From Ramlibacter sp. (GTDB lineage: Bacteria > Pseudomonadota > Gammaproteobacteria > Burkholderiales > Burkholderiaceae_C), in the NCBI RefSeq assembly GCF_028291745.1, contig NZ_JAQGNQ010000112.1:1-64000 (forward strand): a stretch of DNA of 64,000 nt. The letters are read 5' to 3'. Below the pieces are notes generated by a model that saw only the letters and a list, made by a program, of their open reading frames with translations, did not search any database and had not been told where the DNA came from. Positions 22,978 to 43,043 of this stretch are shown piece by piece; position 1 is the first letter of the stretch, and each line of letters starts with the position of its first letter. Position numbers and translations under genes: made by a program.

Positions 22978-23892
22978 ATGCGCTTCGACTGGACCGACCT
23001 CCAGGTCTTCCTGCAGGTATGCGACGCCGGCAGCATGACGGCCGCTGCGCAGCGCTGCCACCTGACGCTGGCGGCCGTCAGCGCCCGCATCCGGGCCCTC
23101 GAAGAGGCCAACGAGCTCGTGCTGCTGCACCGGCAGGCGCGCGGCGTCACGCCGACGCTGGCGGGCGAGATCCTGGCGCGCCATGCGCGGCTGGTCTTCG
23201 AGCAGGTCCAGCGGCTGGAGCGCGATCTGCTGCTGGCGCGGGGCGCACCGGTGCAGCCCCTCGTCGTTCTCGCCAACAGCTCCGCGCTCGCGCGGCCGCT
23301 GGCACCGGCACTCGCCGACTGCGCTGGGGATGGCCGGACTGTCGTGGTGCGCGAAAGCGCGAGCGAAGCGACCGTGCAGGCTTTGCGCTCGGGCGCGGCG
23401 GAGGTCGGCATCGTCTCGGATGCGGTCGACACGCGCGGGCTGCTGGCGCGCGAACTCGGGCCCGATCCGCTGGTGCTGGTGGTCGCGACTGGCCACGCGC
23501 TGGCGGCCTGCGAAAGCGTGCCCTTCGCGGCCGTGCTGGGTCAACCCTGGGTTGCGTGGGGCGAACAGAGCGCGCTGTCCGCGCACCTGCAACTGCGCGC
23601 CGCGGCACTCGGCGCAAGGCTGCCAGCGCGATTCACGTATCCGCAAGCGGCAGGCGTGCTGCAACTGGTCGCCCGGGGGGCGGGAGTGACGGTGCTGCCG
23701 CAGGCCGTGGTGGACCTGCATGCGGGCGCAGCGGTGGCGTGTGTGCGGCTGGAAGAGCGATGGGCGCAGCGGCGCCTGCTGGTGTGCCACCGCGAAGGTG
23801 GCCCTGCCCTGCGCGCGCAGGTGGCCGACGCGCTGCTGCGCGCATGGCGGCTGGTGGCGCCCCCGGCGGGAGTCCAATTACCCCCCGTTTGA
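22978..23892 (+). CDS. LysR-family regulator, 3' end rewritten by the integrated element
   Basis: A 304-residue LysR-type regulator with the helix-turn-helix in residues 4-62 (LQVFLQVCDAGSMTAAAQRC) and an effector domain. It is divergent from the TauE-like gene. Its last 13 codons run through the 18-bp attachment repeat and into the mobile element, ending LVAPPAGVQLPPV. Before integration the frame would have continued into the tRNA-Arg gene and ended after APPAGIEPTSSA at a TAG in the anticodon region. The change affects only the extreme C-terminus, so function is probably kept. Confidence 0.85.
   Translation: MRFDWTDLQVFLQVCDAGSMTAAAQRCHLTLAAVSARIRALEEANELVLLHRQARGVTPTLAGEILARHARLVFEQVQRLERDLLLARGAPVQPLVVLANSSALARPLAPALADCAGDGRTVVVRESASEATVQALRSGAAEVGIVSDAVDTRGLLARELGPDPLVLVVATGHALAACESVPFAAVLGQPWVAWGEQSALSAHLQLRAAALGARLPARFTYPQAAGVLQLVARGAGVTVLPQAVVDLHAGAAVACVRLEERWAQRRLLVCHREGGPALRAQVADALLRAWRLVAPPAGVQLPPV
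23854..23871. repeat. left attachment repeat (18 bp)
   Basis: GTGGCGCCCCCGGCGGGA, identical to 43026-43043, where it forms the 3' acceptor and T-stem end of tRNA-Arg. Sequence identity stops on both sides. It lies inside the 3' end of the LysR frame. Confidence 0.85.
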
Positions 23893-23932
23893 GCTTGAAA
23901 GCATAGCTCCTTCGCCGCATCCGTTCGCGAGG

Positions 23933-24065
23933 TACCGTCAGAAGTACCGTCGTTAGCACCGGCTGGCGGATGGTGAGCACCACCGGTATCAGGGCGCACC
24001 GGGCGGTCCCGATCATCCGCCGCCGCAAGCTGGTGGTGGGCCAGTAGCGGGTACGCCGGACGGTA
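23933..24065. promoter_or_regulatory. left-end TACCGTC boxes, candidate integrase arm sites
   Basis: TACCGTC occurs at 23933-23939 and 23945-23951 with a 12-bp period, and inverted (GACGGTA) at 24059-24065. The right end has the same motif with the same 12-bp period beside the integrase gene. Paired direct repeats inside both ends are expected of tyrosine-integrase arm sites. Confidence 0.55.
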
Positions 24066-24292
24066 GCGCGACGCGAAGGCGGATCAACCAGCACGAAGCT
24101 CCAAGAGCACCACACCGCGCGCTGGTGCCGCACGCCCGCCCAGCGGCCAGCTCAGGCTCGTGGTGGGGCATCAGGCAGCATGGGCTTCAGCACGCCCATG
24201 CGCGGTGCTTCGGGTGACGCCGCCCTTGCAGCCGTGCGGGGCAAGTCTTCGTGCAAAGCCGCCCGGGAACTTGTGCTCTGCACAACGAATTT

Positions 24293-24310
24293 ATTTTCCA
24301 TTTGGAAAAT
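24293..24310. promoter_or_regulatory. palindromic operator ATTTTCCA-TT-TGGAAAAT
   Basis: A perfect 8-bp inverted repeat around TT, 63 bp upstream of the repressor start and just upstream of the likely promoter (TACAGT at 24319-24324). It is a natural candidate for autoregulation by the downstream HTH protein. Confidence 0.6.
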
Positions 24311-24373
24311 GTCTGTGCTACAGTAGAGACGCTCACGCAAAGACCCACCCGCAACGGAGACCAGGAGAAAAGG

Positions 24374-24733
24374 ATGCGCCTCAATGAATTCGGGAAGAAG
24401 GCCCGACTACTGCGAATGGAGCTCGATCTTTCGCTGAAGGAGCAGGCCGAAGCCATGTTGATTAGTTCCGCGCACCTGAGCGCGTTGGAGTACGGCGATA
24501 AGAAGCTGAACGAGGGCCACATCGATATGGCGGTTCGCTTCTTTGAGCGTGCCGGCGTGCCGAAGAACGAGCTGGCGGCGCTGCGCGACGCCGGTGCGAA
24601 GTCGATCGAGTCCATCAACACGAAGGACATGTCGGCTGATGCGCGCGCGATGGTGTACGCCTTCGCGCGCAAGCTGCAAGAGAACGGCAAACCGCCCACG
24701 GGCATCGAGAACTGGCTCAAAGACCGGAAGTAA
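24374..24733 (+). CDS. XRE-family HTH regulator (ImmR-like)
   Basis: A 119-residue DNA-binding protein. The Xre-type helix-turn-helix is in residues 3-62 (LNEFGKKARLLRMELDLSLK, EQAEAMLISSAHLSALEYG). A helical tail follows. ATG is preceded by AGGAGAAAAGG. The next gene is an ImmA/IrrE-type protease 24 bp downstream, an arrangement known from ICEBs1, where ImmR represses the element and ImmA cleaves it after induction. A palindromic operator upstream supports autoregulation. Confidence 0.88.
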   Translation: MRLNEFGKKARLLRMELDLSLKEQAEAMLISSAHLSALEYGDKKLNEGHIDMAVRFFERAGVPKNELAALRDAGAKSIESINTKDMSADARAMVYAFARKLQENGKPPTGIENWLKDRK

Positions 24734-24757: not shown

Positions 24758-25333
24758 ATGACGACGCTAGGGAACGGACATCGCAGCAGGCTGCCCACCG
24801 GTATGAAGGTCGCCCCTACCAGCTACGCTAAGCTGGAACTCGCGGCGGACAGCCTGCGCCCCCTGCTCCCCCGGGAGCGCGGCTCGCAGTACAAGATCGA
24901 CGGCGCGCGCGTGCTTGAGCGCACGCTGCGTCAGGCGGAATACGAGTTTCACGTCGAACACGCTCACAACCTGGAAGACTGCGCGGCCTTCACCATCCCT
25001 GACGAGGGCCTGGTGGTGCTGCGGCAGGACGTCTACGACGGCCTGTTCCGCGACTCCGTCTTCTCGCGCAGCACCGTGATCCACGAGGTCGCGCACATCG
25101 TCCTGAAGCACCATGTCACCCTGCGTCGCGGCGCTGTCGGCCAGCACAAGTTCTACGAAGACAGCGAGTGGCAGGCCAAGGCAATGACGGCGGCGGTGAT
25201 GATGCCGATGGACGCGTGCCAGCAGGCGCGAAACGCGTATGACTTGGCAGAGATGTGTGGCACCAGCGTCGAGGCCGCTACGTACCGCCTAGAACGGCTG
25301 ATCAAGGAGAGGCTGATCTCGCGCAAGCTGTAA
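24758..25333 (+). CDS. ImmA/IrrE-family metallopeptidase
   Basis: A 191-residue zinc metallopeptidase of the ImmA/IrrE (COG2856) family. The motif HEVAH (H109-E110-H113) lies in STVIHEVAHIVLKHH, and the third ligand is probably the Glu in EDSEWQAKAMTAAVMMP. The last part, LAEMCGTSVEAATYRLERL, is the usual C-terminal helical segment. It follows the XRE gene, whose product is its probable proteolytic target on induction. No membrane or export signal is seen. Confidence 0.9.
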   Translation: MTTLGNGHRSRLPTGMKVAPTSYAKLELAADSLRPLLPRERGSQYKIDGARVLERTLRQAEYEFHVEHAHNLEDCAAFTIPDEGLVVLRQDVYDGLFRDSVFSRSTVIHEVAHIVLKHHVTLRRGAVGQHKFYEDSEWQAKAMTAAVMMPMDACQQARNAYDLAEMCGTSVEAATYRLERLIKERLISRKL

Positions 25334-26990: not shown

Positions 26991-27372
26991 GCCAGTACGC
27001 GGCGGCGGAGACGATGGCCGCCGCGAGCGAGACGAGGGCACTCCACATCGCATATCTCGCTGCCCGTTCGGATGCTAGGGCTGAGCGCTGCGCGGCGCGC
27101 ACGGCTTGCCGCTCCAGCTCCAGGGATTCGGCTGCCTTTGCGTCGGCTCGGGTCCGGTCTTGCCGATCCAGCCACTCGTTGATGAGGGATAGGATGCGCG
27201 GGTATCCACCGCTAGCCTTGGCAGCCGCATCGCGAAGGGCGACCTCTCCGGCTTCGCCACCGCCATGCTCGTCCACCCATTGCTGCACTTCTTCGACGCT
27301 CTTGAAGTCACGCAGGCCCGCGCCCGTGATCGCCGCGCCGCGCGCCATTTCAATCCTCCACTCACTGTCCAT
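26971..27372 (-). CDS. tail-anchored protein A, paralogue of 27953-28339
   Basis: A 133-residue protein with GGAGG before the ATG. Residues 1-60 look globular, 65-105 form a charged Ala/Arg/Glu-rich helix, and the last 28 residues are one transmembrane segment (ALVSLAAAIVSAAAYWLTRV). The stretch ASERAARYAMW just before the membrane segment and the TRVP end recur in the gene 600 bp downstream, while the N-terminal halves differ. This is the layout of small membrane-tethered effectors or exclusion proteins, but no function is known. Confidence 0.7.
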   Translation of the reverse strand: MDSEWRIEMARGAAITGAGLRDFKSVEEVQQWVDEHGGGEAGEVALRDAAAKASGGYPRILSLINEWLDRQDRTRADAKAAESLELERQAVRAAQRSALASERAARYAMWSALVSLAAAIVSAAAYWLTRVPS

Positions 27373-27497
27373 CTAACCTCCGGCTCGGGGCAGGAGGGCT
27401 TTGCTGATGTTCGCGCCTCTCCTCACGTCGATTGTGCCGGCTGGGAGTTCAGCCTCTCATTGCGCCCCGCAGCACCCGCGTCCAGCCACAATCGGCC

Positions 27498-28339: not shown

Positions 28340-28438
28340 GGCTGGCTCCCCCGCATGCCTCATGCACCAGCAGACCCTGCGAGGGACTGCCGGAAAAGCA
28401 CGGGAGAGCACGAGAGCACGCTGCGGACAATCGCTTCC

Positions 28439-29374
28439 ATGTCCGATAAGCACTCCCCGCCGTCGAAGATGAAGCCAGAGGCCGCCAAGAAAGCGGGCAA
28501 GCCCAATGCACCGGCGCACGCGAGGAAGTTCGTCCTGCAAGCCGACCTTTCAGAGGAGGACGCCTGGGCGCTCGCTGAGGCCAAGAACCTCACCGCGAAC
28601 GAGGAGCTGTTCGCCCAGGCGTACCTCGCGAACGGGCTCAATGCCACCCAGGCCTACATGGCCGTGCACCCCAAGGCCAAGCGAGGAACCGCGACTGTGG
28701 AGGGGTCCCGAACGCTTGCGAAAACCCACGTTTTGCGACGGGTGCGCGAGCTGGTCGCCGAGCGCAGCAAGAAACTGGAGATTGACGGCGAGGAGCTGCT
28801 GCGGCACACCCACGCGGTGGCGACGGCCGATCACCGGCACCTCACCCAGTATCGCTACTTCAACTGCCCGTACTGCCGTGGCCTCGACCACCGGCGCCAG
28901 CGCACGCTTGCCCAATTTGAGGATGACCGCCGCCGACACGAAGACGAGGAGCGGAAGCGCGAGGCGCACTGCGTAATCGCGGACAAGGCCTATGTGCCGG
29001 ACGACTTCGACGAGGAGGGTGGGCCCGGGTTCAACGAGTGCGCCGCGCCGGTCGAGGACTGCCCGAATTGCTTTGGCAACGGGGTGGGTCGCACGGTGAT
29101 CGCCGACACCAGCAAGGTGCCAGCCGATGCCGCGATTCTGTTCGCCGGGGTGAAGGAAACGAAGGATGGCGTGGAGGTGAAGTTCCACGACAAGCTGACC
29201 GCTCAGAGCATGTTGTTCAAGCACAAAGGCCTATTCGAGGCCGACAACGCGCAGCAGGCGGCGGCCACCTCACCCGAGGCGCTCGCGGCCATGGCTGCGG
29301 CCATGGAGGTCGGGCGAGCCAAGCAGCTCCAGAAACTCGCGGAACGCCGGGCGACCGGCTTCAGCGGGGATTAG
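28439..29374 (+). CDS. phage terminase small subunit-like protein
   Basis: A 311-residue protein. Residues about 48-110 (LTANEELFAQAYLANGLNAT, then SRTLAKTHVLRRVRELVAER) match the helix-turn-helix of terminase small subunits, which recognise packaging sites. Two CxxC pairs follow, C143/C146 in NCPYCRGLDHRRQRT and C208/C211 in DCPNCFGNGVGR, probably binding zinc. The C-terminal AAILFAGVKETKDGVEVKFH is also seen in phage small terminases. No large terminase follows; the next gene is convergent. In an element without capsid genes this protein may redirect a helper phage's packaging. Confidence 0.85.
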   Translation: MSDKHSPPSKMKPEAAKKAGKPNAPAHARKFVLQADLSEEDAWALAEAKNLTANEELFAQAYLANGLNATQAYMAVHPKAKRGTATVEGSRTLAKTHVLRRVRELVAERSKKLEIDGEELLRHTHAVATADHRHLTQYRYFNCPYCRGLDHRRQRTLAQFEDDRRRHEDEERKREAHCVIADKAYVPDDFDEEGGPGFNECAAPVEDCPNCFGNGVGRTVIADTSKVPADAAILFAGVKETKDGVEVKFHDKLTAQSMLFKHKGLFEADNAQQAAATSPEALAAMAAAMEVGRAKQLQKLAERRATGFSGD

Positions 29375-30420: not shown

Positions 30421-31302
30421 TTGGATGACGAGTTAGGGGCCGCCGAGAAGGCGCGCAGGCGTGAAGCAGAGGAGTTCGGCTGCTACGGACTCGTGGGCGG
30501 GGCGGCTCGCCAGCTACGCACCCACAACTGGGTGAGGGCCTGCGAGGTCACGAAGCAAGATGGCCCGTTCTACTGTGGCCGCTGCTACTCCGACGCCATC
30601 GTGCGGAAATGCGATGAGAAGGTCGACCACTTCGCACACGAAGCCCCCAGGACTGCGGCGATAGGTGCAAAGGAAGGCGAACTCCACCTGGCCTGCAAGC
30701 GGCAAATCTGCGCAGAGCTTGCTGCCGGCTCGCCGGACGGAAGCTGGGAGGCCGAGCGGACCATTCCAGCAAACGCGAAGCGCGGCATTCGTGAGGTGCG
30801 CCCGGACATCAGCGGGAGGCTGCGAAACGGGCGTGTGGCCGTGGAGGTACAAGCGAGTGCTCTGAGCATCACCAGCATTCTGAAGCGGACCCTGACGTAC
30901 ACGCAGCGTCGGATCCCTGTTCTCTGGGTGGTGCCACTGCACGCGGAACTGCCCGACGCCCAGTTCCGCCCGCGCCTGTACGAGCGCTATTTCCAGAGCA
31001 TCTACTTCGGGCGCACCTACTACTGGTGGCCCGGGCTGGGCGCCTCGGTGATGCCGGTGCACTACGGCATTGCTAAGCGGCACATCCCGTACGCTGAATG
31101 GTACGAACAGGGCGGCGAGCACATCGAGGTTGGCGGCTACGAAGTAGATTACAAGGCCATCAAGCGGCCCGTGTTCGGTCCCTTGCTGAAGATCGACAAC
31201 CACTTCGCGCCGCACCGACGGGACGCCTTCACTCCGGAGAACGAGCGGAAGGCCGTCCCCGAATGCGACCTCTGGTTCGACCACATGGAGCCTTGGTGGT
31301 GA
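30421..31302 (+). CDS. CoiA-like nuclease-domain protein
   Basis: A 293-residue protein resembling competence protein CoiA and its PD-(D/E)XK nuclease relatives. A CxxC near C52/C55 (FYCGRCYSD) and the following KVDHFAH form the N-terminal zinc-like part. EGELHLACKRQI, then VRPDISGR with D129 and VAVEVQASA with E142/Q144 fit the nuclease core. The start is TTG with GGGAG 8 nt upstream. CoiA supports recombination of incoming DNA in competent bacteria. In this element it may process element or helper DNA, or act in defence. Confidence 0.7.
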   Translation: MDDELGAAEKARRREAEEFGCYGLVGGAARQLRTHNWVRACEVTKQDGPFYCGRCYSDAIVRKCDEKVDHFAHEAPRTAAIGAKEGELHLACKRQICAELAAGSPDGSWEAERTIPANAKRGIREVRPDISGRLRNGRVAVEVQASALSITSILKRTLTYTQRRIPVLWVVPLHAELPDAQFRPRLYERYFQSIYFGRTYYWWPGLGASVMPVHYGIAKRHIPYAEWYEQGGEHIEVGGYEVDYKAIKRPVFGPLLKIDNHFAPHRRDAFTPENERKAVPECDLWFDHMEPWW

Positions 31303-32644: not shown

Positions 32645-33463
32645 TCAGAACCGGCGGAAACCGGCCCAGTCGTCTTTGCCGATGGCCGTGAGGCTCGCCA
32701 GGGAGAGCGCCATAGTTCCGTGGATCAGGTTGCCTGCGCTGTCTCGCGGCCCGGTGAGCGGATACGGGATGCCCTCGATGACGAGCGGCTTGAACAGCTT
32801 GTTGGCGTAGCTCATCCCGATGATCTGCGGCGCCTCCGACGGATACATCGTGCGAAAGCCCTTCTCCTGGGACGAGTCCAGCGCATTGCCCACGAGGCCC
32901 TGCTGCGCGAGCTTCTTCGGCACCGCCCAGGACATCAATTGATCCATGGGCGCCTCGACTTCGGAGGCGCCGTCATAGATCGCGCGGAAGTGCGCGGTGA
33001 CGGAGAGCTTCAGGGGCGGCATGCCGCTGAAAACCTGCGTCGAATTCAGCTTCGTGACGGCGGTGCGTCCTTCCAGGCTCTGCACGCTTTGCTGGCCTGC
33101 TGACAGCGCGTTCGAGAAAAGATCGTTGCCTGCTGGGATGTAGGCTTGCAGGGCGTTCAGGATCGCCTCGAAGCCGCCGGCCTGGAACATGGAGGACAGG
33201 CTGGACAGCTTCGCGTCCGCGGTCTGGTTCTCGAACGGCGAATGCCAGTTGGCCGTCTGCTCCAGGTTGCCGTCGGTGACCGGCGCCTGCACTTCGACGG
33301 AGCCAGGCACGCGCTCCCATCGCACGTTCGTTCCTTCCACAACGCGCCGCACGGGAAAGAAGCTCGCGATCAATTTCGGCGACAACCCCGTCCAGTCCGA
33401 AGAGAGGACCGGGTTCTCGGTCCCGGCGGACTGGCCGGCGTAGGCATTCGAGTTAGTGGGCAT
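32645..33463 (-). CDS. hypothetical protein, possibly phage virion-associated
   Basis: A 272-residue acidic-to-neutral soluble protein. Segments such as TAVTKLNSTQVFSGMPPLKL and YDGASEVEAPMDQLMSWAVP resemble, from memory, proteins encoded among phage tail or baseplate genes, but I cannot name a family. It starts MPTNSNAYAGQSAGTENPVL without a signal peptide. It overlaps the upstream gene by 11 bp. With the SWIM-type protein and the paralogous pair it forms a five-gene module without recognised capsid, portal or tail genes. Confidence 0.6.
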   Translation of the reverse strand: MPTNSNAYAGQSAGTENPVLSSDWTGLSPKLIASFFPVRRVVEGTNVRWERVPGSVEVQAPVTDGNLEQTANWHSPFENQTADAKLSSLSSMFQAGGFEAILNALQAYIPAGNDLFSNALSAGQQSVQSLEGRTAVTKLNSTQVFSGMPPLKLSVTAHFRAIYDGASEVEAPMDQLMSWAVPKKLAQQGLVGNALDSSQEKGFRTMYPSEAPQIIGMSYANKLFKPLVIEGIPYPLTGPRDSAGNLIHGTMALSLASLTAIGKDDWAGFRRF

Positions 33464-33980
33464 GGATGTGGTCAGGCAGAGTGGCGGCCTCTTCGTCCGA
33501 GGCGGCGTTGATCAAGCCGAGATCGGTCCGGAGGTGCAGGATGGCCTCGCCAGGCTCCAGGGTGAAGACGGCGATGGAGTCGGGTTCCGGAGGGTGAGCC
33601 GCGTGCGCGTCGCCCAGGTCTGCAGCCGAAATCAGCACCTCGTACACGAGGGCGGACCCGTCGGCCAGGAGCACGGCAAGCAACTCGCCAATCGCGGGCA
33701 GAGGGGCGTCGTCGCGCATCTCCACGACGGCGCGCAGGTACTGGCCGGACGCCTCCACCTCGACGCAGAGCTTTTCGCGCACGAAGTCGCTCTCGTCGGT
33801 GCCGGTGATCACGAGCCGGCCGCGGCCGAGGCTCTCGATGTCCTGGGCAGCATCGGCGAGGGCGTCGACCTTCAGCCAGTCATCCGGGTTCTCGTCGTTC
33901 AATGGGGTGCCGTTCTCGTCCACGATGCGCGCGCGCAGCAGCGTGAATTCGAAGGCGGATTCTTGGTTGGGCTGTCGCAT
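33453..33980 (-). CDS. hypothetical protein, 175 residues
   Basis: Opens MRQPNQESAFEFTLLRARIV and is strongly acidic (LNDENPDDWLKVDALADAAQ). It seems to consist of two beta-rich segments, with an alternating pattern in LCVEVEASGQYLRAVVEMRD. It ends in a histidine-rich LPDHIHAH. No domain is recognised. It overlaps the following gene by 11 bp and follows the SWIM-type gene by 47 bp. Confidence 0.6.
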   Translation of the reverse strand: MRQPNQESAFEFTLLRARIVDENGTPLNDENPDDWLKVDALADAAQDIESLGRGRLVITGTDESDFVREKLCVEVEASGQYLRAVVEMRDDAPLPAIGELLAVLLADGSALVYEVLISAADLGDAHAAHPPEPDSIAVFTLEPGEAILHLRTDLGLINAASDEEAATLPDHIHAH

Positions 33981-34027: not shown

Positions 34028-35029
34028 TCATGACCCTGCGGGTTGCTGGAGGACGCGCTGGAGCGCCTGCAAGATGGCTCCGGCGCTCACGTCCGTGCGG
34101 GCCTGGAGCGCGGAAAGGGTCGCGGCTACGTCGGCCCTTGCGTCTCCCGCGCCCCGTGTCGCCAGCGCACGGCGAACGCCGGCGAGCACGGCGCTCCGGT
34201 GAGCATCGTCTGTCGTGCGGATCGCGCGCGGCTTCACCGTCACGCCCTGCGCGGCCTGCTGCTGGCGCACCAGAATGACCTGAGGCTTCACGCGCCGCGG
34301 CGCCTCCAGGCGCTGGCGGTCTGCTTCGATCATTCCGGCGATCTGCCGGCGCGTGAACATGCCTGATTTCAACTCCGAGGCAACGCGTACCACGTGCTTG
34401 CAACAAAGTCCGCGCAGGTGCGGGTTCCGGATCTTCGGGAACCCAGGCTCGGCGCGGCCCGCGTTGAAGCCTCCGATGGAGCTGAGAAATCTGTAGAAGT
34501 AGCGGTGCCGTTCGCAGTCGCAGTCCAGCTTCAAGTGGCCCTGCTGCCCCAGCCACGCAGCCGCTTGGAGCGCGGTCCCGGGGCGTGACAACGCCGCGCC
34601 GTAGCCTGGGAAGAGGATGGTGACCATGTGCCGGTTCACGCGGCTCTCCGGGCCAGCGCTGACGCTGAACACGACCTCGCCGGCGCGCAGGCGCGCGGGG
34701 ATGGCGTGCGGGATCTCGCGTCGGGCGCGCTCCCGATCTGCCGGCGTACTGAGGTCGATCACCTCCTGCGCCGTGATGCCCGCCTGCAGCTTGCCGCCCA
34801 CGGCCGCGACCGACTTCCGAAAGGCGACGAGGTCCGCCTGGGTGATCGGTCGCGCCTCTCCGCGCAGGGTCGTCCAAAGCAGGCGCGCCGGCGAGTGCTT
34901 GCCGCCCTGCATGGCCTCCGGCGTGAGGATCGTGGTCGCGCGCTGGCGGCTTTGCAGATCGTTCAGCCGTCGGCGGTTCAGCTCCGCGACCGCGTTGCCG
35001 ACTTTTGGGGGAAGGGGGCGAGTGCTCAT
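34028..35029 (-). CDS. SWIM-type zinc-finger-like protein
   Basis: A 333-residue protein with a CxC-x(n)-CxH arrangement: C170 and C172 in LKLDCDCERHRYFYRF, and C210/H212 in RGLCCKHVVRV. This is the SWIM zinc-binding pattern, associated with DNA or protein binding. The residues between (GGFNAGRAEPGFPKIRNPHL) are unusual for SWIM. The C-terminus carries a long helical region with RRALATRGAGDARADVAATL. It overlaps the next gene upstream by 4 bp. Possible roles are DNA recognition or an element-specific structural function. Confidence 0.65.
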   Translation of the reverse strand: MSTRPLPPKVGNAVAELNRRRLNDLQSRQRATTILTPEAMQGGKHSPARLLWTTLRGEARPITQADLVAFRKSVAAVGGKLQAGITAQEVIDLSTPADRERARREIPHAIPARLRAGEVVFSVSAGPESRVNRHMVTILFPGYGAALSRPGTALQAAAWLGQQGHLKLDCDCERHRYFYRFLSSIGGFNAGRAEPGFPKIRNPHLRGLCCKHVVRVASELKSGMFTRRQIAGMIEADRQRLEAPRRVKPQVILVRQQQAAQGVTVKPRAIRTTDDAHRSAVLAGVRRALATRGAGDARADVAATLSALQARTDVSAGAILQALQRVLQQPAGS

Positions 35030-35628
35030 GCTGCGAGGGGCGCCTTGGCCCGGAGGAGATGGTCGATGCCGACGCCGCGCAGGTGGCGCAGGTCTCGCTC
35101 AGGATCATTGCGCCATGCGTCGACGGCCCTCGCCAGGCGGTTTGCCTCGCGCGCGGCAGCCTCGTGGAGCGACGCGCGCATAGCCTGCGCCGTCGGCCCG
35201 CCGCCGAATCCGAAGACCGGCGCTGCGCTCGGGGCGTGCGCCTCTGCTGCGTGCGCGAGGCACTCGTCGACCACCTCCTCCAGTTGCTGACGCTTGTCTC
35301 CCAGGCGGTCGGCTGCGAGAGCAGATTCGTCGGCCCACGACCGGCGCTCCGCCTTCAGCGCCGCCAGCAGGTCGAGGAGGGCTTCATGGACCGGGAGGCC
35401 CCCCTGGTCGCCTGCTTCGACCGCCAGCGCGAGGAAATGCCAGGGGCCGGCGTCCTTCACCAAGCGATACAGCTCGCGCGTGCAGCGGACCGCGAGATTC
35501 CTGTTCTCAACGTCTGCCCTTGCGCGCACGAGTCGGGCGCGTACCGGTGGCGAAGGGGCGGCCTCTTGCCCGAACGGGTGGGCCTGCATGTTGCGGCCGC
35601 CAGTGCCCAGCAGCGCCTGGTGCTTCAT
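35026..35628 (-). CDS. hypothetical protein, HLRG-x-GID family member 1
   Basis: A 200-residue, mainly helical protein. Its C-terminus, AVDAWRNDPERDLRHLRGVG then IDHLL, is repeated in the adjacent upstream gene, so the two are paralogues with diverged N-terminal parts. Middle segments (LLDLLAALKAERRSWADESA, LEEVVDECLAHAAEAHA) suggest coiled coil. Starts and stops of the pair overlap by 4 bp. No known family; the conserved W-x(2)-DP-x(2)-D-x(2)-HLRG-x-GID end may bind a shared partner. Confidence 0.65.
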   Translation of the reverse strand: MKHQALLGTGGRNMQAHPFGQEAAPSPPVRARLVRARADVENRNLAVRCTRELYRLVKDAGPWHFLALAVEAGDQGGLPVHEALLDLLAALKAERRSWADESALAADRLGDKRQQLEEVVDECLAHAAEAHAPSAAPVFGFGGGPTAQAMRASLHEAAAREANRLARAVDAWRNDPERDLRHLRGVGIDHLLRAKAPLAA

Positions 35629-36362
35629 GCCGGGACTGCGCTGCGGTGGATCTGCGCGTCGACCAAGTCATCGATCCCGATCCCGCGAAGGTGCTCGGCA
35701 TCGTGCAGCGGGTCGTCATGCCAGCACTTGATGGCCTTCAGGACCGTGTCGGCATTCCGAAGGGTCTCCTGGTGTTTCTGCACTTCCGCATCCCTCTCCG
35801 CTGCAGTCTGAGCTGCCGCGCTCTCGACCCCCGGCATCACCTCGCTCATCTGATGCACGGTGAGGCCGGCGGCCAAGAGCTGTTGCCACCGCGAGATGTT
35901 GCGGACCGGCTCGCGTGCGCTGCGAAGCAGGGCGTCCAGCGTCCGCAGAGCGCCGCCGCGGGCGGCAGTCATCCGGAAGTCGAGCTCGCCGACCGCCCGG
36001 GTGAGCGGCGCGCTACGCTCCATTTCCGCGCGGCGACGACCCACAGCCGTCTGGCCCTCCTGCTTGAGCGTCTGCTGTTCGGCCTGGAGCTTGCCGAGTT
36101 CGACGCGAAGCCATTCAGCGGGCGTAGTTTCCAGGGCGGCCGAGCCGTAGGTGGCGCCGGTCAAGAAGTGCTCCAGCGCGCCCTGTTCGACGAGGCGCGT
36201 CAACTCGTAGGCGCAGGACTGGGCCAGTCGCGTGACTTCGCGGTCGGCGACGGCAAGCTTGTGCGCGCGCACGGTCTCCACGTCCGGAAGCACCGCGCCC
36301 CCCGTGAGGGGGCCATGCAGGAAGCGCCAGAGGCTGTTGGAAATTGAGGTCGCGGGGTGCAT
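35625..36362 (-). CDS. hypothetical protein, HLRG-x-GID family member 2
   Basis: A 245-residue helical protein. The end, AIKCWHDDPLHDAEHLRGIG then IDDLV, parallels the end of the downstream neighbour. Long amphipathic helices (LGKLQAEQQTLKQEGQTAVG) point to coiled coil. The two proteins are translationally coupled and probably form a hetero-oligomer. An XRE-type regulator gene lies 14 bp upstream in the same direction, so the module may be under its control. Confidence 0.65.
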   Translation of the reverse strand: MHPATSISNSLWRFLHGPLTGGAVLPDVETVRAHKLAVADREVTRLAQSCAYELTRLVEQGALEHFLTGATYGSAALETTPAEWLRVELGKLQAEQQTLKQEGQTAVGRRRAEMERSAPLTRAVGELDFRMTAARGGALRTLDALLRSAREPVRNISRWQQLLAAGLTVHQMSEVMPGVESAAAQTAAERDAEVQKHQETLRNADTVLKAIKCWHDDPLHDAEHLRGIGIDDLVDAQIHRSAVPA

Positions 36363-36376: not shown

Positions 36377-37135
36377 TCAGGTGGTTTGAAATTCGCCTGC
36401 GCTACGGCGGCCGCGCGCAGTCGTGAGCTCGCCGGCACGGGAGAGTGCATGCGCACGCGCGTATGCGGATCTCTCCAGGAACCGGTCAAGTTGTGCGGTG
36501 GAATCCCGCATGTCGCGTGACGTGCGGAGCAATGTGGCGCCGCCGCGCGCGTCGTCGAACAGGCGGGAGTTAAGCTGCTTGAAACGTTCGATGGCATCGC
36601 ACAGCGCGTTCGCGCGAGTGGAGAACCTCGCCACGCGGAGCTCGTCTCCAGCCGGCGATGCGCACGCGTCCAACAGGCATTGGGCGACGGTCTCCGTGTT
36701 GAACCGCAGAAGCCGCTCGACCCGCCGGAGCACCGCAAAACGCGACGCCAATTTCGGGTCACGGTCGAATTCCGGACTCTCGCCGAGCAAGTAGTCCACT
36801 GACACGGAGTAGACCTTCGCCGCCTTGATTAGCACATCGTGCGGCGGCAGGCGCTTGCCTTGCTCGACGAGGGAGACCTGGGTCGAATTGGAATATCCGA
36901 GGCGCGCAGCAGCTTCTGTCTGATCGAAGCCATTGATACGTCGGGCCTCTTGCATGCGCTCTCCCACCACGCGCCTGAGGTGAGCATTCGACTGCGCACG
37001 TGGACCACGTTCTCCAGCGACCTCGTCCGGGCTTTCCAGCTCCTCCAGGTCCTCCTCCACCAGTGCCGCGAGCTGCGCGGGCAAGTGCGGGGCCTGGCGA
37101 GTGGCGGATTCGAGTTCGGCTGCGGGTGATGTCAC
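36377..37135 (-). CDS. XRE-family regulator with extended C-terminal domain
   Basis: A 252-residue protein. The helix-turn-helix spans about residues 55-115 (RRVVGERMQEARRINGFDQT, EAAARLGYSNSTQVSLVEQG). A helical domain of 130 residues follows (RFAVLRRVERLLRFNTETVA). GTG was chosen as the start with GGAG 9 nt upstream; an in-frame ATG at 37234 would add an unlikely 33 residues. It precedes the undescribed gene module by 14 bp and may govern it. The spacer upstream holds AAACGA repeats that could be its operator. Confidence 0.75.
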   Translation of the reverse strand: MTSPAAELESATRQAPHLPAQLAALVEEDLEELESPDEVAGERGPRAQSNAHLRRVVGERMQEARRINGFDQTEAAARLGYSNSTQVSLVEQGKRLPPHDVLIKAAKVYSVSVDYLLGESPEFDRDPKLASRFAVLRRVERLLRFNTETVAQCLLDACASPAGDELRVARFSTRANALCDAIERFKQLNSRLFDDARGGATLLRTSRDMRDSTAQLDRFLERSAYARAHALSRAGELTTARGRRSAGEFQTT

Positions 37136-37520
37136 TGCGATGCGCTCCGTGTGATGAAGACCGCATGCTGGCCTGCGTGGACTCGCAACGCCCAAATGTT
37201 TTCCCAATTCAGCCTTGTGCTGCGCGACGTTCATCGAAAGCCGGTATAGAGCCGCGCGTCGACCTAACGGGGCGGGAGCCGTCAAACGAGTTTTGAAACG
37301 AATAAGGTTTTGCGAGGGTGCCGCCACGCGCGCAACAGCCCCGAAAGCGTCCTGTCGCGAGTGGGAGAACTGCTGCCTGTCATTGGGGGCAGCGACGCCG
37401 CCGCCTGCGAAAGTGCGATGCGACGGCGTCACCCTAACCACCCCCACGTAGCCCTAATCACCCCCACATGCCGACGGCGTGCGCGGCGTGCGCGGTGAGC
37501 CAAGGGAGGGCTCGCGAGGC
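37136..37520. other. repeat-bearing spacer, candidate regulatory or replication region
   Basis: 385 bp with no supported gene. It contains CAAACGA-N5-GAAACGA (AAACGA twice with a 12-bp period, 37284-37301) and the 20-bp tandem repeats at 37432-37471. Base composition is locally lower in GC around 37270-37320. Confidence 0.5.
37432..37471. repeat. 20-bp tandem repeat, two copies (iteron-like)
   Basis: CCCTAACCACCCCCACGTAG is followed directly by CCCTAATCACCCCCACATGC, 16 of 20 positions equal. Two copies only. Such iteron-like repeats can bind an initiator or regulator; this lies just downstream of the second terminase-like gene. Confidence 0.55.
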
Positions 37521-38108
37521 TCACAGCTTGGCCCTCGCCGGTTGGGGCCGCGCACGCTGGCTTTGCTCCGACAGAAAGGTGCCGCGACCCGTCCTGACAT
37601 TCAGCGCAGCGTGCCGGAGGACTCCATGCCCAAGGCATGAGGGGCACTGCGGATGAGGCGGCTTCGTCGGGTCGAATCCATCCCCGCCTTCCGGATCGAA
37701 GGGCCGAGCCCTGTAGATCTTTCCGGCTCTCTCATAGAGGCCGCGCATCTTGGCCTGGTCGCGGCGATGTGCTCGCCGGTCCGCCTGCATCTCCTGCCGC
37801 GTGCGCTGGCGGCGGTGGTCGCGGCCGTGGCAGTACGCGCAAGCCTGGTGGACTGAAACCAGTACGGCGAGGTCCTGGCCGCCACTGGTGTGCCCGCTAT
37901 CCGGCTCGTGCGCGTCGCGGTCCCGCATTGCGGCGAGCAGCGCCTGTACGTCGGGCCGCCTGGCGAGCCGTGGCCCCTCCCTGACCGCGGTGCCCCAGCT
38001 CGCGCGCGGGTGCGCCCGTAGGTAAGCCGCCACCGGGTCGCGGTCGACGATGAACTCGCGTGCGAACTTCTCGCATTCGGCAGGTCGGTCACAGGCCTTC
38101 AGGCTCAT
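37521..38108 (-). CDS. second terminase small subunit-like zinc protein, C-terminally short
   Basis: A 195-residue paralogue of the 28439 protein. The N-terminal FAREFIVDRDPVAAYLRAHP parallels the terminase helix-turn-helix, and the zinc-like part is closely conserved: C90/C93 in ACAYCHGRDHRRQRT and C155/C158 in QCPSCLGHGVLR. The C-terminal region with VKETKDGVEVKFH, present in the first copy, is missing. A truncated small terminase could compete in, or retarget, packaging. It lies between the replication-type gene and the iteron-like repeats. Confidence 0.75.
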   Translation of the reverse strand: MSLKACDRPAECEKFAREFIVDRDPVAAYLRAHPRASWGTAVREGPRLARRPDVQALLAAMRDRDAHEPDSGHTSGGQDLAVLVSVHQACAYCHGRDHRRQRTRQEMQADRRAHRRDQAKMRGLYERAGKIYRARPFDPEGGDGFDPTKPPHPQCPSCLGHGVLRHAALNVRTGRGTFLSEQSQRARPQPARAKL

Positions 38109-38141
38109 GACGCAATCCCTCTTGCCGCGCAAGCAACAACA

Positions 38142-38156: not shown

Positions 38157-38160
38157 CTGT

Positions 38161-38335
38161 GACGGTTCCTCTGATGGTTCATGACGGTTCTATGGTGATT
38201 TGGGTGCAACGGGGTTCAGGGGGCTACCGAACCGTAGTTCACCCCGTTGTGAACGCTGGTGCAGGAGGGGGTGCAACTGCCTGCACTGCTCCCGACGGGA
38301 TTCCACTCGGCATCCCGTCGGGCTCCCGACGGGAG
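38161..38335. other. origin-like cluster of direct and inverted repeats
   Basis: GACGGTTC occurs at 38161-38168 and 38183-38190. CAACGGGGT / ACCCCGTTG arms (38208-38216, 38241-38249) form a large cruciform. Inside the replication-type gene, CCCGACGGGAT / ATCCCGTCGGG (38291-38301, 38312-38322) and CTCCCGACGGGAG (38323-38335) follow. The density of repeats in and beside a replication-type gene resembles an origin, as in lambda where iterons lie within gene O. Confidence 0.45.
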
Positions 38336-38703
38336 AATGGAGCGTCGCAAGCTCCTGAACTCGTTTGCAGGGGTGCACTCGGGTTCAGGGATGCAGCGGG
38401 GTTCGGGGGCGCACTGGATTGCGCCGGTGGCGCTGTGTCGGCCTCAGGCAGCACGATCTGATAGAGGTTCGTTCCGTTTCTGCCGGCGCCCCGATGCGCA
38501 CGAAGCTCGCCGCGCTCCTGCAGCCCCTTCAGGAGGTACATGGCGTTCCTTTCCCCGGTGCGGCACTTGCGCGCGAGAGTCGGGATCGACGGAAAGGCGC
38601 GGCCCTGATCGTCGGCGTAATCCGCAATCGCAAGAAGCATCAGAAGCTCCGTGCCCGATGACGCGGACTGCTCCCAAACGCGCGTCATCACCCTGATGCT
38701 CAT
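38239..38703 (-). CDS. replication-type winged-helix protein (HTH_36 / O-like N-terminus)
   Basis: A 154-residue protein. The first 75 residues (MSIRVMTRVWEQSASSGTEL, LLMLLAIADYADDQGRAFPS, YLLKGLQERGELRAHRGAGR) match the helix-turn-helix domain 36 / phage replication O-type N-terminus that binds origin DNA. The rest is a short Pro/Ala/Ser-rich tail with PDGMPSGIPSG, encoded by palindromic DNA. Full replication proteins carry a larger C-terminal domain, so this may be a compact or truncated initiator. It overlaps the upstream gene by 4 bp. Confidence 0.75.
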   Translation of the reverse strand: MSIRVMTRVWEQSASSGTELLMLLAIADYADDQGRAFPSIPTLARKCRTGERNAMYLLKGLQERGELRAHRGAGRNGTNLYQIVLPEADTAPPAQSSAPPNPAASLNPSAPLQTSSGACDAPFSRREPDGMPSGIPSGAVQAVAPPPAPAFTTG

Positions 38704-39071
38704 GATCGCTGCCTAGCCTCTGGATCGCCAGAACGCCTCTCCGCGCCCACGTCCAGCCACGATCCAGCGATAGCGCCACGGGCGTGCAGGTGATTCAGCC
38801 AAGCGCCGACCTGCTCCCGGTTCTCGAAGCGGATCGTCTCAGCGCCACGGGTGGCGATCAGCACCTCGCAGCCAGCGTCGTCCTCCATCTGCACCAGCGT
38901 GAAGCTGGCGAAGGCCGCCTCCGCCGTCAGCGCGCTCAGCTCCTTCGCGTCCGCACGGCTTGCATGGCGCACGTATGGCCGACGGCCGGCACGGGCGTGC
39001 ATCAAGCCACGGACTAGGGCAGCATCGGCTCCCCACCCATGCGTCGAGGAAACGTGATTACGGCGCTGCAT
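38700..39071 (-). CDS. hypothetical protein, 123 residues
   Basis: Starts MQRRNHVSSTHGWGADAALV. The C-terminal part TLVQMEDDAGCEVLIATRGA, then ENREQVGAWLNHLHARGAI, looks like a small alpha/beta domain typical of accessory proteins in mobile elements. It overlaps both neighbours by ATGA-type junctions, so it is translated as part of the AlpA-replication block. No family is recognised. Confidence 0.6.
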   Translation of the reverse strand: MQRRNHVSSTHGWGADAALVRGLMHARAGRRPYVRHASRADAKELSALTAEAAFASFTLVQMEDDAGCEVLIATRGAETIRFENREQVGAWLNHLHARGAIAGSWLDVGAERRSGDPEARQRS

Positions 39072-39286
39072 CACTCGCCCTTGTGCGCCTGGGAGTCCCG
39101 CCACTGCAGGAGGCTGTCCTCGTTGAACACGGTGCACCTGGGGGACAGGCGAATCCCCTTCGGGAAGTCCACTCTCTCACGGTTCCAGGTCCACAGCGTG
39201 GAAATGGAGATTCCGAGGGTTGCGGCTGCTACTCGCGGCCTGAGTGAGCGCCCTTTTCCGTGGGGCGTGGTGATTGCTTCCGACAC
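39071..39286 (-). CDS. AlpA-family regulator/excisionase-like protein
   Basis: A 71-residue MerR-like winged helix protein with the AlpA pattern PRVAAATLGISISTLWTWNR, then DFPKGIRLSPRCTVFNEDSL. GTG start with AAGGAG 6 nt upstream. AlpA proteins activate integrase or late functions in P4-like satellites and PICI. It is the first gene of a coupled block leading into the replication-type gene. A palindrome overlaps its upstream region and may be its own or another regulator's operator. Confidence 0.82.
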   Translation of the reverse strand: MSEAITTPHGKGRSLRPRVAAATLGISISTLWTWNRERVDFPKGIRLSPRCTVFNEDSLLQWRDSQAHKGE

Positions 39287-39298
39287 TTGCTGCTCCTT

Positions 39299-39318
39299 GT
39301 TGTAGTTGCTCGTACAAC
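39299..39318. promoter_or_regulatory. inverted repeat GTTGTA-N8-TACAAC upstream of the AlpA-like gene
   Basis: Six-base arms with an 8-nt spacer lie just upstream of the GTG start, against the ribosome binding site. A regulator bound here would block transcription or translation of the AlpA-replication block. Confidence 0.45.
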
Positions 39319-39440
39319 GTGGGCAGATGGTCATCCTTTCGGCTTGCGGCGGGAAGACAGGTGCCCGGCACATGCATGCACATGCCGGGCATCTACAGGG
39401 GTGGGTGATCGCTACTCCGCGCGCCGCAGAACTCCGCGAG

Positions 39441-41036: not shown

Positions 41037-41237
41037 TCAATGCACGGCGACGTAGGTGTCGTGCAGCCGCTTGATCTCCAGCATGGCGCCGAGAAACGGT
41101 CCCACCCAGCCCGGGATTGGGACTGCGCCCCTCGCCCAGCGGCTCGGCGTGTTCGGCCTGCACCCTGCCCTGCGGCAAAAGTCGCTCTGCTTCCATCCCA
41201 GTTCGGCCAGCGCCTGAAGAAATTCCGTGCTTGTCAC
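41037..41237 (-). CDS. Cro-like HTH protein
   Basis: A 66-residue protein (MTSTEFLQALAELGWKQSDF, then CRRAGCRPNTPSRWARGAV) with a helix-turn-helix typical of Cro-type regulators in mobile elements. GTG start with GAGG upstream is preferred; a GTG 36 bp earlier is possible. The spacer to the excisionase-like gene carries two copies of a perfect palindrome, probably its operators, so it may control the integrase-excisionase side and its own operon. Confidence 0.7.
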   Translation of the reverse strand: MTSTEFLQALAELGWKQSDFCRRAGCRPNTPSRWARGAVPIPGWVGPFLGAMLEIKRLHDTYVAVH

Positions 41238-41293
41238 ATCGCCTCGTATTGCGGTTAGATCGAAGACTACCACTTTACCGAAATGTCGACAAA

Positions 41294-41370
41294 GATAGAC
41301 TTTCTATCACCATCCAGTTGATACAACGTCCATTATGTCAAATGGAAAACGCCGCGATAGACGCTCTATC
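41294..41370. promoter_or_regulatory. paired operators GATAGA-N3-TCTATC
   Basis: GATAGA-CTT-TCTATC (41294-41308) and GATAGA-CGC-TCTATC (41356-41370), centre to centre 62 bp, each followed by AC. They sit between the Cro-like gene and the excisionase-like gene. Two identical palindromes with variable centres are strong candidates for repressor sites. Confidence 0.75.
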
Positions 41371-41391
41371 ACGGCGCTGCGAACGGGTCGT

Positions 41392-41604
41392 TCACCGTAT
41401 GGGAGGTCGCGGTGGAAGCGGCAAGTCGAAGCCGGCGGCGCGGAGCGTCGACAGGCGCCAGCCCATCGTCCTGAGACTAAGTTTCACGTCGGGCGGGGGC
41501 AGCTTGCCGCGCTTGATCCACACGCGAATCGTCTCGCCACAGACCCCGCCGCACATCTGCCGCAGCTCGTGGCGCCAGATCACCACATCGTCCGGCGGAT
41601 GCAT
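41392..41604 (-). CDS. excisionase-like (AlpA/MerR-type) protein
   Basis: A 70-residue protein, VVIWRHELRQMCGGVCGETI then RVWIKRGKLPPPD, with a winged-helix DNA-recognition pattern shared by excisionase-like proteins of integrative elements. Its ATG overlaps the integrase stop (ATGA), coupling the two. Such proteins bend DNA at the attachment site and promote excision. The paired palindromes downstream of the gene belong to the next operon. Confidence 0.75.
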   Translation of the reverse strand: MHPPDDVVIWRHELRQMCGGVCGETIRVWIKRGKLPPPDVKLSLRTMGWRLSTLRAAGFDLPLPPRPPIR

Positions 41605-42851
41605 CAGGCGGCCTGCGCACGCAGTTCGACAACATCCGCGCCTCTGCGCAGCTTGTCCAGGTAGTCCGCCCACTCGCGCATCATCTTGCGGCGCTGCTCC
41701 AGGTAGTCCGCACGGTCGTAGGCGGCGCCCAGAGGCCCCGACTTGCCGTGCGCCAGTTGCGCCTCGATCACCTCCGGGTCAACACCGGATAGTCGCTCCA
41801 CCATCAGCGTGCGCGCCATGGCGCGGAAGCCGTGCGCGGTCATCTCGTCGGTGCTGAACCCCATGCGTCGAAGCGCCGCGTTGATGGTGTTGTCGGACAT
41901 GGGCCGTTCCCCTGTGCGCAGCGACGGGAAGACGTAGCGGCCGTGCCCGGTGAGCGAGTGCAGCTCGCGAAGGATCGACACCGCCTGCGGTGCCAGCGGC
42001 ACCAGATGGGGCCGGCCGTTGATCTTCTGGTGCAGTCGGCGCTTCATCGCCTGGGCCGGGATGGTCAGCATGCCGCTGTCTAGATCGACCCAGGCCCATT
42101 CCATCTGCCGAATATTCCCCGGCCGCTGGAACACAAGCGCCGAGAGTTGCAGCGCAGCGCGGGTCATGGGCTGGCCGTTGTAGCCATAGATCGCGCGCAG
42201 GAGGCCGCCAGCCTGCACCGGCTCCAGGACGGCGGCCATGTGTTTCACCACCAGCGGCTTAAGCGCGCCATGGAGGTCGGCAACCGGGTTGCGCTCACAG
42301 CGCCCCGTCTGGATTCCATAACGGAACACCTGACCGAGGGTCTGGCGCAGCGTGTGCGCCGTCTCGCTGACCCCGCGCTTCTCGACCTTGCGCAGCGCGT
42401 CAAGCAGCATTGGAGCGGTGATCTCCGGGAGAGGTAATCGGCCGACTTGCGGGAACAAATCCTTCTCCATCCGCTGGATCCAGAGCGCCGCGTACTTGGG
42501 GCTCCAGGCGCTGGCCTTCGTGACGTGCAGCTCACGGGCGACCGCCTCCAGCGTGTTCGCCGCTGCAGCAACGGTGGCCGCCTTTTCGGCACGCTTGGCG
42601 ATGCCGGGATCTACTTGTTCCGCCAGCAGCTCGCGCGCCTTGTCGCGGCGCTGGCGAGCCTTCGCCAGCGAGACCTCGGGGTAGATGCCCAGCGCCAGCG
42701 TCTTGCGCTTGCCGGCGTAGCGATAGTCGAAGCGCCAGTACTTGCCAGCCGCCTTGACCAGCAGGTACATGCCCGCGCTATCCGTGTGTTTGTCGCCCGC
42801 CGGCTTGCCGGTATGCTTGACCTGGCGGACGAAGGTGTCGGTGAGTGCCAT
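41604..42851 (-). CDS. tyrosine recombinase integrase (P4-like)
   Basis: A 415-residue phage integrase with an N-terminal DUF4102-type arm-binding domain (MALTDTFVRQVKHTGKPAGD, GMYLLVKAAGKYWRFDYRY) and a C-terminal catalytic domain. Catalytic residues: R243 in FQRPGNIRQ, H340-x-x-R343 in TAHGFRAMA, H368 in LAHGKSG, and Tyr378 in AAYDRADYLEQRR. The P4-type is typical of tRNA-integrating elements. The gene ends in the excisionase-like gene and begins 175 bp from the tRNA. Confidence 0.95.
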   Translation of the reverse strand: MALTDTFVRQVKHTGKPAGDKHTDSAGMYLLVKAAGKYWRFDYRYAGKRKTLALGIYPEVSLAKARQRRDKARELLAEQVDPGIAKRAEKAATVAAAANTLEAVARELHVTKASAWSPKYAALWIQRMEKDLFPQVGRLPLPEITAPMLLDALRKVEKRGVSETAHTLRQTLGQVFRYGIQTGRCERNPVADLHGALKPLVVKHMAAVLEPVQAGGLLRAIYGYNGQPMTRAALQLSALVFQRPGNIRQMEWAWVDLDSGMLTIPAQAMKRRLHQKINGRPHLVPLAPQAVSILRELHSLTGHGRYVFPSLRTGERPMSDNTINAALRRMGFSTDEMTAHGFRAMARTLMVERLSGVDPEVIEAQLAHGKSGPLGAAYDRADYLEQRRKMMREWADYLDKLRRGADVVELRAQAA

Positions 42852-42863
42852 CGGTGCCCTGCT

Positions 42864-42926
42864 GACGGTATCCAGGCAGCAAGGTCCCAGCGATACCGCC
42901 AAAGATACCGCCAAATAGACGGTATT
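42864..42926. promoter_or_regulatory. right-end TACCGYC boxes, candidate integrase arm sites
   Basis: GATACCGCCAAA is repeated exactly in tandem (42892-42903, 42904-42915), flanked by inverted GACGGTA at 42864-42870 and 42918-42924. The 12-bp period equals that at the left end. They overlap the integrase promoter region, so the integrase may also regulate itself. Confidence 0.6.
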
Positions 42927-43025
42927 TCATGATACTACGGCAGAGTACATCGCACTAACGGCGAGGGCCCGCGCCCTCTGAAATCAGCCGTTTTCGCACT
43001 ACAGCGGATCTCATCGCACGCCGAT

Positions 43026-43043
43026 GTGGCGCCCCCGGCGGGA
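43026..43043. repeat. right attachment repeat (18 bp), within tRNA-Arg
   Basis: Identical to 23854-23871. It covers the CCA end, the acceptor 3' strand and the start of the T-stem of the tRNA gene. Confidence 0.85.

Follow-up and report, generated by a model that had tools for sequence, protein, structure and literature searches.

A 19-kb element in Ramlibacter is probably a phage satellite with tail genes related to those of P1- and Rb1-like phages

The window analysed here, a 64-kb stretch of Ramlibacter sp. DNA (contig NZ_JAQGNQ010000112.1, positions 1 to 64,000), contains a 19-kb integrative element at the 3′ end of a tRNA-Arg gene. From its genes and from related loci in other bacteria, we conclude that this element is probably an integrated satellite, of the type of the phage-inducible chromosomal islands (PICIs), adapted to myophages like P1 and Rb1. 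Satellites of this sort are small parasites of phages that are unable to build a virus particle themselves.

Borders and insertion site

An exact 18-bp direct repeat bounds 19,172 bp, as an earlier sequence-only reading of this DNA had noticed, and its right copy covers the end of a tRNA gene placed by ARAGORN:

23854–23871: distal attachment repeat, 18 bp, in frame within the 3′ end of a LysR gene
43026–43043: tRNA-side attachment repeat, 18 bp, the tRNA-Arg 3′ end plus one base
43027–43101, minus strand: tRNA-Arg(CCT), the integration target
22978–23892, plus strand: LysR gene, outside the element; its last codons cross the left repeat and its 3′ end is changed by the insertion

Because the tRNA spans 43027–43101, the 18-bp core consists of the 3′-terminal 17 nt of the tRNA plus a single base outside it. 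No further copy was found in the window at up to three mismatches, and of six places in the whole genome with up to two mismatches just the two border copies were exact. When 64-kb sequences were simulated 200 times with an order-3 Markov model, the longest exact match to the last 45 nt of the tRNA was 16 nt (seen once), as against the 18 observed. A dinucleotide-shuffle control allowing up to three mismatches reached two matches in 20 of 100 shuffles, and hence had no discriminating power. The left repeat also marks a drop in GC content, from 72.6% (23–24 kb) to 62.9% (24–25 kb). A complete-looking element with exact borders, as the sequence-only reading had described it, is supported as well by a related element in Eoetvoesiella caeni (L098; L and G numbers denote loci and genomes), the border of which is the same 3′ end of tRNA-Arg(CCT).

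That reading had also predicted an empty site, in which LysR directly adjoins the tRNA and a single core is present. This was borne out in part, in a comparison that covered 36 congeners and eight fetched loci. Four congeners (G006, G008, G015 and G029) carry the 17-nt core just once, as the 3′ end of their tRNA, and no integrase relative was found in the 3–11 kb fetched around these tRNAs, so uninserted tRNAs exist. The LysR junction was not among them: no relative with LysR adjoining the tRNA was found, and in G028, G015 and G009 the LysR/22146 pair has its homologues at other places. The full 18-mer was absent from all loci of other genomes tested, and the core is therefore the tRNA end itself. 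Without the element, the LysR frame would run into the tRNA; as read from the sequence, the element therefore gives LysR a new end and stop codon.

Gene content

The Pfam scan covered 30 open reading frames (ORFs) of the element and the PHROG scan 20. The genes are listed from the tRNA leftwards; HTH stands for helix-turn-helix and TerS for terminase small subunit.

41604–42851, minus strand: tyrosine integrase with the P4-type domain set (Pfam Phage_integrase, Phage_int_M, Arm-DNA-bind_3)
41037–41273, minus strand: small HTH-like protein (weak HTH_31); its counterparts in L097 and L098 are about 60% identical
39071–39373, minus strand: AlpA-like regulator (PF05930, marginal at 22.1 bits for a cut-off of 21), with relatives in L098, L111, L115 and L258
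38700–39137, minus strand: ORF without assigned family (no Pfam or PHROG match), 4-bp overlap with the next gene
38239–38703, minus strand: replication initiation O-like protein (HTH_36, E 3e-8; phrog_8540, E 5e-20)
37521–38132, minus strand: second, diverged TerS-like protein (phrog_51, E 1e-4; phmmer matches down to 3e-14)
36377–37447, minus strand: HTH regulator whose relative in phage Rb1 lies upstream of TerS
35625–36362, minus strand: ORF without assigned family, weakly similar to Rb1 27197–27403 (E 3e-4)
35026–35628, minus strand: ORF without assigned family (no Pfam or PHROG match), 4-bp overlaps with its neighbours
34028–35029, minus strand: P1 gp25-like protein with an invariant CxC..CxH (phrog_4315, E 3e-65; phrog_1722; Rb1 37%)
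33453–33980, minus strand: small ORF between the gp25-like and PmgG-like genes, with weak relatives in L096 (E 5e-4) and L331 (E 9e-4)
32645–33463, minus strand: PmgG-like tail tube-linking protein (phrog_1114, E 5e-47; Rb1 41%; model matches P1 baseplate 9vzk and 9ay5)
30421–31302, plus strand: CoiA-like nuclease (PF06054, E 1.5e-9)
28355–29374, plus strand: TerS (PF03592, E 8e-19; phrog_51, E 1e-28; 38–40% to F116 and DC1)
24758–25333, plus strand: ImmA-like metalloprotease (M78 peptidase PF06114, E 4e-6)
24374–24733, plus strand: ImmR-like HTH repressor, weak (HTH match under the Pfam cut-off)

The PICI features of an integrase with specific repeats, AlpA (at a marginal score) and TerS are all present. 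Between 39137 and 32645 the minus-strand genes are packed as in an operon, each overlapping the next or separated from it by no more than about 110 bp. The nearest phages by TerS are of the F116, DC1 and BcepIL02 types, and the phmmer matches of the second TerS-like protein are partly the same phage ORFs that TerS itself matches. The integrase beside the tRNA is P4-like, as the sequence-only reading had recognized; its best relative in 399 genomes of the order (67%) adjoins tRNA-Arg(TCT) in G129, the order and family genome sets being samples and not exhaustive. The elements of its nearest relatives (G129, G085 and G245) have little else in common with the window. For the proposed ImmR/ImmA-like pair, the ImmA half stood and the ImmR half was weak. 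The stated lack of metabolic genes held for the ORFs scanned with Pfam.

No large terminase, capsid, portal, protease or sheath gene was found in the element by either scan, and no primase was identified in the window, where the O-like initiator is present instead. PADLOC returned regulator- and peptidase-type matches only, plus one weak JetC match. A tRNA site, an integrase and ImmR/ImmA-like genes are, to our knowledge, also found in genomic islands and mobilisable elements unrelated to phages. That the element is one of these is hardly credible, as TerS, the O-like protein, gp25 and PmgG are phage genes and no relaxase or type IV secretion domain occurred in the ORFs scanned with Pfam (short ORFs were only partly covered); with no relaxase in these 30, a conjugative or mobilisable element was rejected.

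The two tail proteins

The best phage records for both the gp25-like and the PmgG-like protein were Xanthomonas phage Rb1 and Acinetobacter phage ABMM1, and the gp25-like protein likewise matched P1 gp25. An AlphaFold model of the PmgG-like protein (pLDDT 83) found the P1 baseplate as its best PDB match (9vzk_2, E 2e-8; 9ay5_G, TM 0.79 on target). Its family, phrog_1114, carries the title ‘head morphogenesis’ yet is PmgG, a baseplate protein. According to passages of PMC12810830, PmgG of P1 joins the tail tube to the hub, and excerpts from PMC9024508 describe it as essential. For P1 gp25, the latter source gives in the same excerpts just ‘tail stability’ and a weak virion signal, with no role assigned. 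When gp25 was searched by structure, the PDB yielded no match with an E value under 0.001. In the gp25-like family C170, C172, C210 and H212 were invariant over 69 sequences, a CxC..CxH pattern that we take to resemble a SWIM zinc finger.

Related compact loci

Three scans yielded 16 further compact loci, 12 in named genomes and four in IMG/VR, making 17 with the window. The named hosts are Beta- and Gammaproteobacteria and Desulfosarcinaceae (Xenophilus, Eoetvoesiella, an Alcaligenaceae strain, Sphaerotilus, the beta strain AAP99, Nevskia, Halomonas, Pseudomonas, Lysobacter, Desulfosarcina (two) and Desulfatitalea); roughly half of these genomes are metagenome-assembled (MAGs). Alignment-based gp25 scans gave 73 genome loci and the best 80 of 149 confirmed IMG/VR loci. 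With the window and three phages, these 153 loci made 157 rows: 136 phage-like, 18 compact and three unclear (L142, L212 and L221). Dropped from the compact rows were L119 and L205 (Hydromonas), for a large terminase (TerL) gene on the same numbered contig and, in L205, the same match pattern, as well as L144 and L220, short contigs in which an integrase was not shown; 14 remained, including the window. Scanning IMG/VR with PmgG, for which the best 80 of 168 confirmed loci were taken, gave 76 phage-like and four compact loci, of which three were kept and L315 (6.6 kb) was dropped. Alignments worked better than a single protein: in IMG/VR the single-protein PmgG scan gave no match. The corresponding gp25 scan gave no relatives among 77 pattern matches, and that with TerS three loci of 24, which share TerS alone with the element.

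Five relatives are bounded by direct repeats at tRNA 3′ ends, over 11.1–16.8 kb (11.1–19.2 kb with the window):

L097: tRNA-Thr, 14,424 bp
L098 (Eoetvoesiella caeni): tRNA-Arg(CCT), 15-bp repeat, 14,694 bp
L111: tRNA-Pro, 13,224 bp
L143: tRNA-Gln, 16,764 bp
L145: tRNA-Leu, 11,143 bp

No attachment repeats could be assigned in L096, L100, L106, L115, L118, L127 and L147, where the contig ended, a tRNA was lacking or no repeat stood out clearly. L258, a whole IMG/VR record of 13,245 bp, has the order integrase, O-like, DnaB, HTH, gp25, PmgG, TerS. Replication genes vary among the elements, being either O-like with DnaB or a primase, and primase-type genes are common to L111 and L115. The TerS proteins fall into two PHROG types, 309 (L097 and L111) and 51 (L118 and the window).

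Two side observations concern these loci. A 15-kb Xenophilus azovorans contig (L331, G435:C87) carries at 7157–14975 two further gp25 and PmgG cassettes about 5 kb apart, perhaps tandem satellites. Large satellite proteins that are otherwise different have about 40 C-terminal residues in common at about 43–70% identity (L098 13348–13482, L118 16348–16464 and L106 7872–9974).

Recurrence of Rb1 genes

When 90 Rb1 proteins were tested against the 17 loci (E 1e-4), 13 had any match. Those that recurred were gp25 (17/17), PmgG (11/17), the HTH regulator (10/17), a helicase (6/17), TerS (5/17) and a tape-measure-like protein (5/17), so labelled from PHROG matches to tape-measure, tail-lysin and transglycosylase families. 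The gp25 count is by choice, because 13 of the 16 relatives were found by searching with gp25 and three with PmgG. No gene recurred in more than six loci in 20,000 random draws, a test that ignores the easier detection of conserved genes; this detection bias and the PmgG-based choice of three loci weaken the exact figure. The Rb1 genes annotated as large terminase, capsid protein, connector and protease were matched in none of the 17 loci at the same threshold, while the large terminase was matched widely in phage-like loci. Of 14 genomes tested, 13, including that of the window, have neither Rb1-type TerL nor Rb1-type major capsid protein anywhere; the exception is the genome with L119, a locus that is read as a prophage. 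The four IMG/VR records, which may be fragments, have no Rb1-type TerL.

Four genes of the window have Rb1 homologues at E 1e-4, and the minus-strand subset HTH–gp25–PmgG stands in the Rb1 order. Both facts would suit a decayed P1/Rb1-like prophage in which gp25, PmgG, TerS and the HTH gene are chance survivors. We consider such decay improbable. The same few genes recur over the 17 loci, with TerL and major capsid protein matched in none, and several elements combine tRNA-end repeats with open reading frames for replication proteins, TerS and integrase. The window's TerS gene is on the opposite strand and in the other half of the element, and the gene order is unlike that of Rb1 in L118, L330 and L311. 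L118 (Lysobacter) resembles Rb1 in TerS (65%), tape-measure-like protein (74%), g23 (79%), PmgG (81–82%), O-like protein (66%), HTH (54%) and gp25 (51%), with its genes in the order O-HTH-gp25-PmgG-g23-tape measure-TerS; Rb1 genes at 65–82% in a different order argue against decay. No large terminase or capsid gene, the hallmark of a P1/Rb1-like prophage, was matched in the element or its genome. Gene recurrence and the different gene order led us to reject a simple prophage remnant.

Implied exchange of tail genes between phages and satellites

The cleaned gp25 tree (92 rows, 17 satellites) required 10 changes of label, at least six of them forced by starred branches, and the cleaned PmgG tree (75 rows, 11 satellites) nine, at least seven of them forced. 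These trees leave out L142, L212, L221, L161 and L162 (gp25) and L254 (PmgG). First trees that kept doubtful rows forced at least nine (gp25) and at least six (PmgG) changes; the gp25 tree merged near-copies, L097 among them. Clustering of satellite labels was weak in the first trees, with values as low in 37 of 500 shuffles (gp25) and about 200 of 500 (PmgG); after cleaning, this was so in 0 of 500 (gp25) and 41–55 of 500 (PmgG).

The label changes imply that gp25 and PmgG would have been exchanged several times between phages and satellites. Capture by satellites would explain this most simply, since it is the phages that have the complete set of particle genes. In the first gp25 tree a Pseudomonas prophage was the neighbour of L115, L111 fell into a starred set together with a Halomonas prophage, and L098 grouped with L172, whose match values are the same as those of L104, a Pusillimonas prophage. 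The PmgG trees placed L097 with L172 and L118 with Rb1, and the window's PmgG grouped with phage contigs L251–L253 and L255 and with Xenophilus (support 98). A match between hosts is suggestive only, because the phages next to other satellites come from different hosts or from hosts that are not known.

Proposed life cycle and role of the tail genes

As a PICI-type satellite, the element would be integrated by recombination of the 18-bp core at the tRNA-Arg(CCT) 3′ end by its integrase, and its own copy of the core would keep the tRNA whole and hand LysR its new stop codon. The ImmR/ImmA-like and AlpA-like proteins presumably govern excision or induction. Judging by the families of these proteins, arrival of a helper phage would be followed by satellite replication, initiated by the O-like protein, and by redirection of the phage's large terminase to satellite DNA through TerS. 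The HTH-gp25-x-PmgG cassette may be read late, its products joining helper tail assembly. The resulting particles would carry tube-linking parts specified by the satellite, to which some relatives may add the tape-measure/tail-lysin-like protein. Because large terminase, capsid and sheath genes were not found, the element should not form particles alone.

The gp25-like and PmgG-like proteins of such a satellite could also be decoys that, instead of building tails, poison the tail assembly of the helper or of rivals. Tai proteins of PICIs and P4-like elements block tail assembly, as set out in passages of PMC11364771, and a near-match of PmgG could poison assembly because PmgG is essential for P1 (excerpts from PMC9024508). 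The 21 invariant columns over 49 PmgG-like sequences, phages and satellites taken together, and the addition of a tape-measure-like gene in 5 of 17 loci, which suggests construction, speak against decoys without being decisive. We regard interference as rather unlikely, and keep both it and construction in play as possible roles.

Several points weigh against the satellite reading itself. The element is known here from sequence alone and its helper through homology only; an Rb1-like TerL was not found in the window's genome and occurs in only 3 of 299 genomes of the family at E 1e-60. The AlpA and ImmR matches are weak, no LysR–tRNA empty site was found, and borders are resolved in 6 of the 17 loci, several of which are MAGs or short contigs. 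In L143 and L147 gp25 alone of the Rb1 set was matched, and the window's element lacks the tape-measure-like gene. The gp25-like protein has no firm function, and the trees come from short searches with SH-aLRT support alone, which do not fix the direction of exchange.

A broader proposal, which we put forward tentatively, is that there is a widespread, undescribed class of ‘tail-modifying’ satellites of P1/Rb1-like myophages, in which elements with differing cores repeatedly capture gp25-PmgG(-tape measure) from the local helper and build satellite-specified tails on helper heads. If true, the tail would be another step under satellite control, through proteins shared with the phages (gp25, the tube-linking protein and, in some cases, one of the tape-measure-like type), and the class would be a mirror image of the capsid-forming PICIs. 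The loci would also offer a natural way to study the conserved P1 protein gp25, which has no firm function. They are candidate satellites for the P1-like lineage, for which we found no earlier report in the open-access literature searched, and the group's hallmark genes are easily searched.

Sequence to the left of the element

An orthologue of the window gene at 14774–15964 lies at most 350 bp from the tRNA in four of the eight fetched congener loci (G026, G015, G030 and G007), and 15965–23853 is therefore a second block that is missing at the tRNA there. The window thus carries two blocks that these relatives lack, the 19-kb element and 8 kb to its left. G026 lacks everything between this gene and the tRNA, as would be expected if our left border were wrong and a 27-kb element reached from about 15,970 to the tRNA, LysR block included. 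This is very unlikely, since the exact 18-mer at 23854 exceeds all 200 simulations, GC content and gene type shift at the left repeat, and the homologues of the LysR pair sit elsewhere in congeners. No further copy of the 18-mer lies in the window at the mismatches allowed, and inspection of 15,900–16,200 by eye revealed none; as the tRNA end is not repeated farther to the left, the 27-kb element was rejected.

The 8-kb block, which contains the LysR pair, is a second accessory block between gene 14774–15964 and the element. An imperfect palindromic repeat, noted by eye, lies at 16031–16109 between that gene and the next. Relative to gene 14774, tRNA-Arg(CCT) is inverted in the window and G026 with respect to G015, G030 and G007 (L037, L039, L041 and L043). 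Outside the element, the minus strand at 54496–60693 has an ORF of 2065 aa.

Comparison with known systems

The satellites of which we are aware take over packaging by the helper or alter the size of its capsid. P4-like satellites have psu, sid, delta and alpha as hallmark genes; none of these families was named among the Pfam or PHROG matches, and just the integrase type and AlpA of the window's element recall P4. Capsid-forming PICIs (cfPICIs) bring capsid genes. The likeness to them is that of a satellite supplying part of the particle, except that here tail genes are present and no capsid gene was found. cfPICIs are named, and satellite families treated, in passages of PMC11389934.

Gram-negative PICIs, as described in parts of PMC6092414, share with the element a site-specific integrase, AlpA, a replication gene, sometimes TerS, and small size. 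Unlike them, the window's element has the P1/Rb1-type gp25-like and PmgG-like genes, an O-like initiator with no identified primase, and the ImmR/ImmA-like pair. In a table from a study of HE-PICIs (203, 923 and 273 islands), no satellite set matched either of two tail Pfams, as far as the excerpt from PMC10111431 goes. The satellite AH14b of Pseudomonas sp. ANT_H14 (16.8 kb) has an integrase, AlpA, a primase and a tail assembly gene and is packaged in helper capsids, according to passages of PMC4936722. It differs in its predicted siphovirus helper and in having lambda tail assembly protein I rather than gp25/PmgG, and no terminase is reported for it in those passages. With Xanthomonas phage Rb1 (PQ569993) and Punavirus P1 alike the element has the gp25-like protein in common, and with Rb1, by sequence, also PmgG-like, TerS and HTH homologues. 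Both differ from the element in being complete phages of about 91–95 kb with large terminase, capsid and tail genes, and the annotated recombinase of Rb1 is a serine recombinase.

No link of PmgG or gp25 to satellites was found among the open-access papers listed, subscription papers and preprints being outside the scope; one paper comparing P1-like phage-plasmids mentions pmgG, and ‘satellite’ there appears in the references only. The sequence-only reading had held that the element is not of any well-known phage type. Its gene set proved to be that of a PICI-type satellite, whereas its tail-gene cassette is indeed unusual. The core fits PICI-type satellites; the gp25/PmgG tail cassette does not and looks undescribed in the literature searched. 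The element would belong to a scattered and, it seems, undescribed set of satellites that have a few tail genes in common with P1 relatives.

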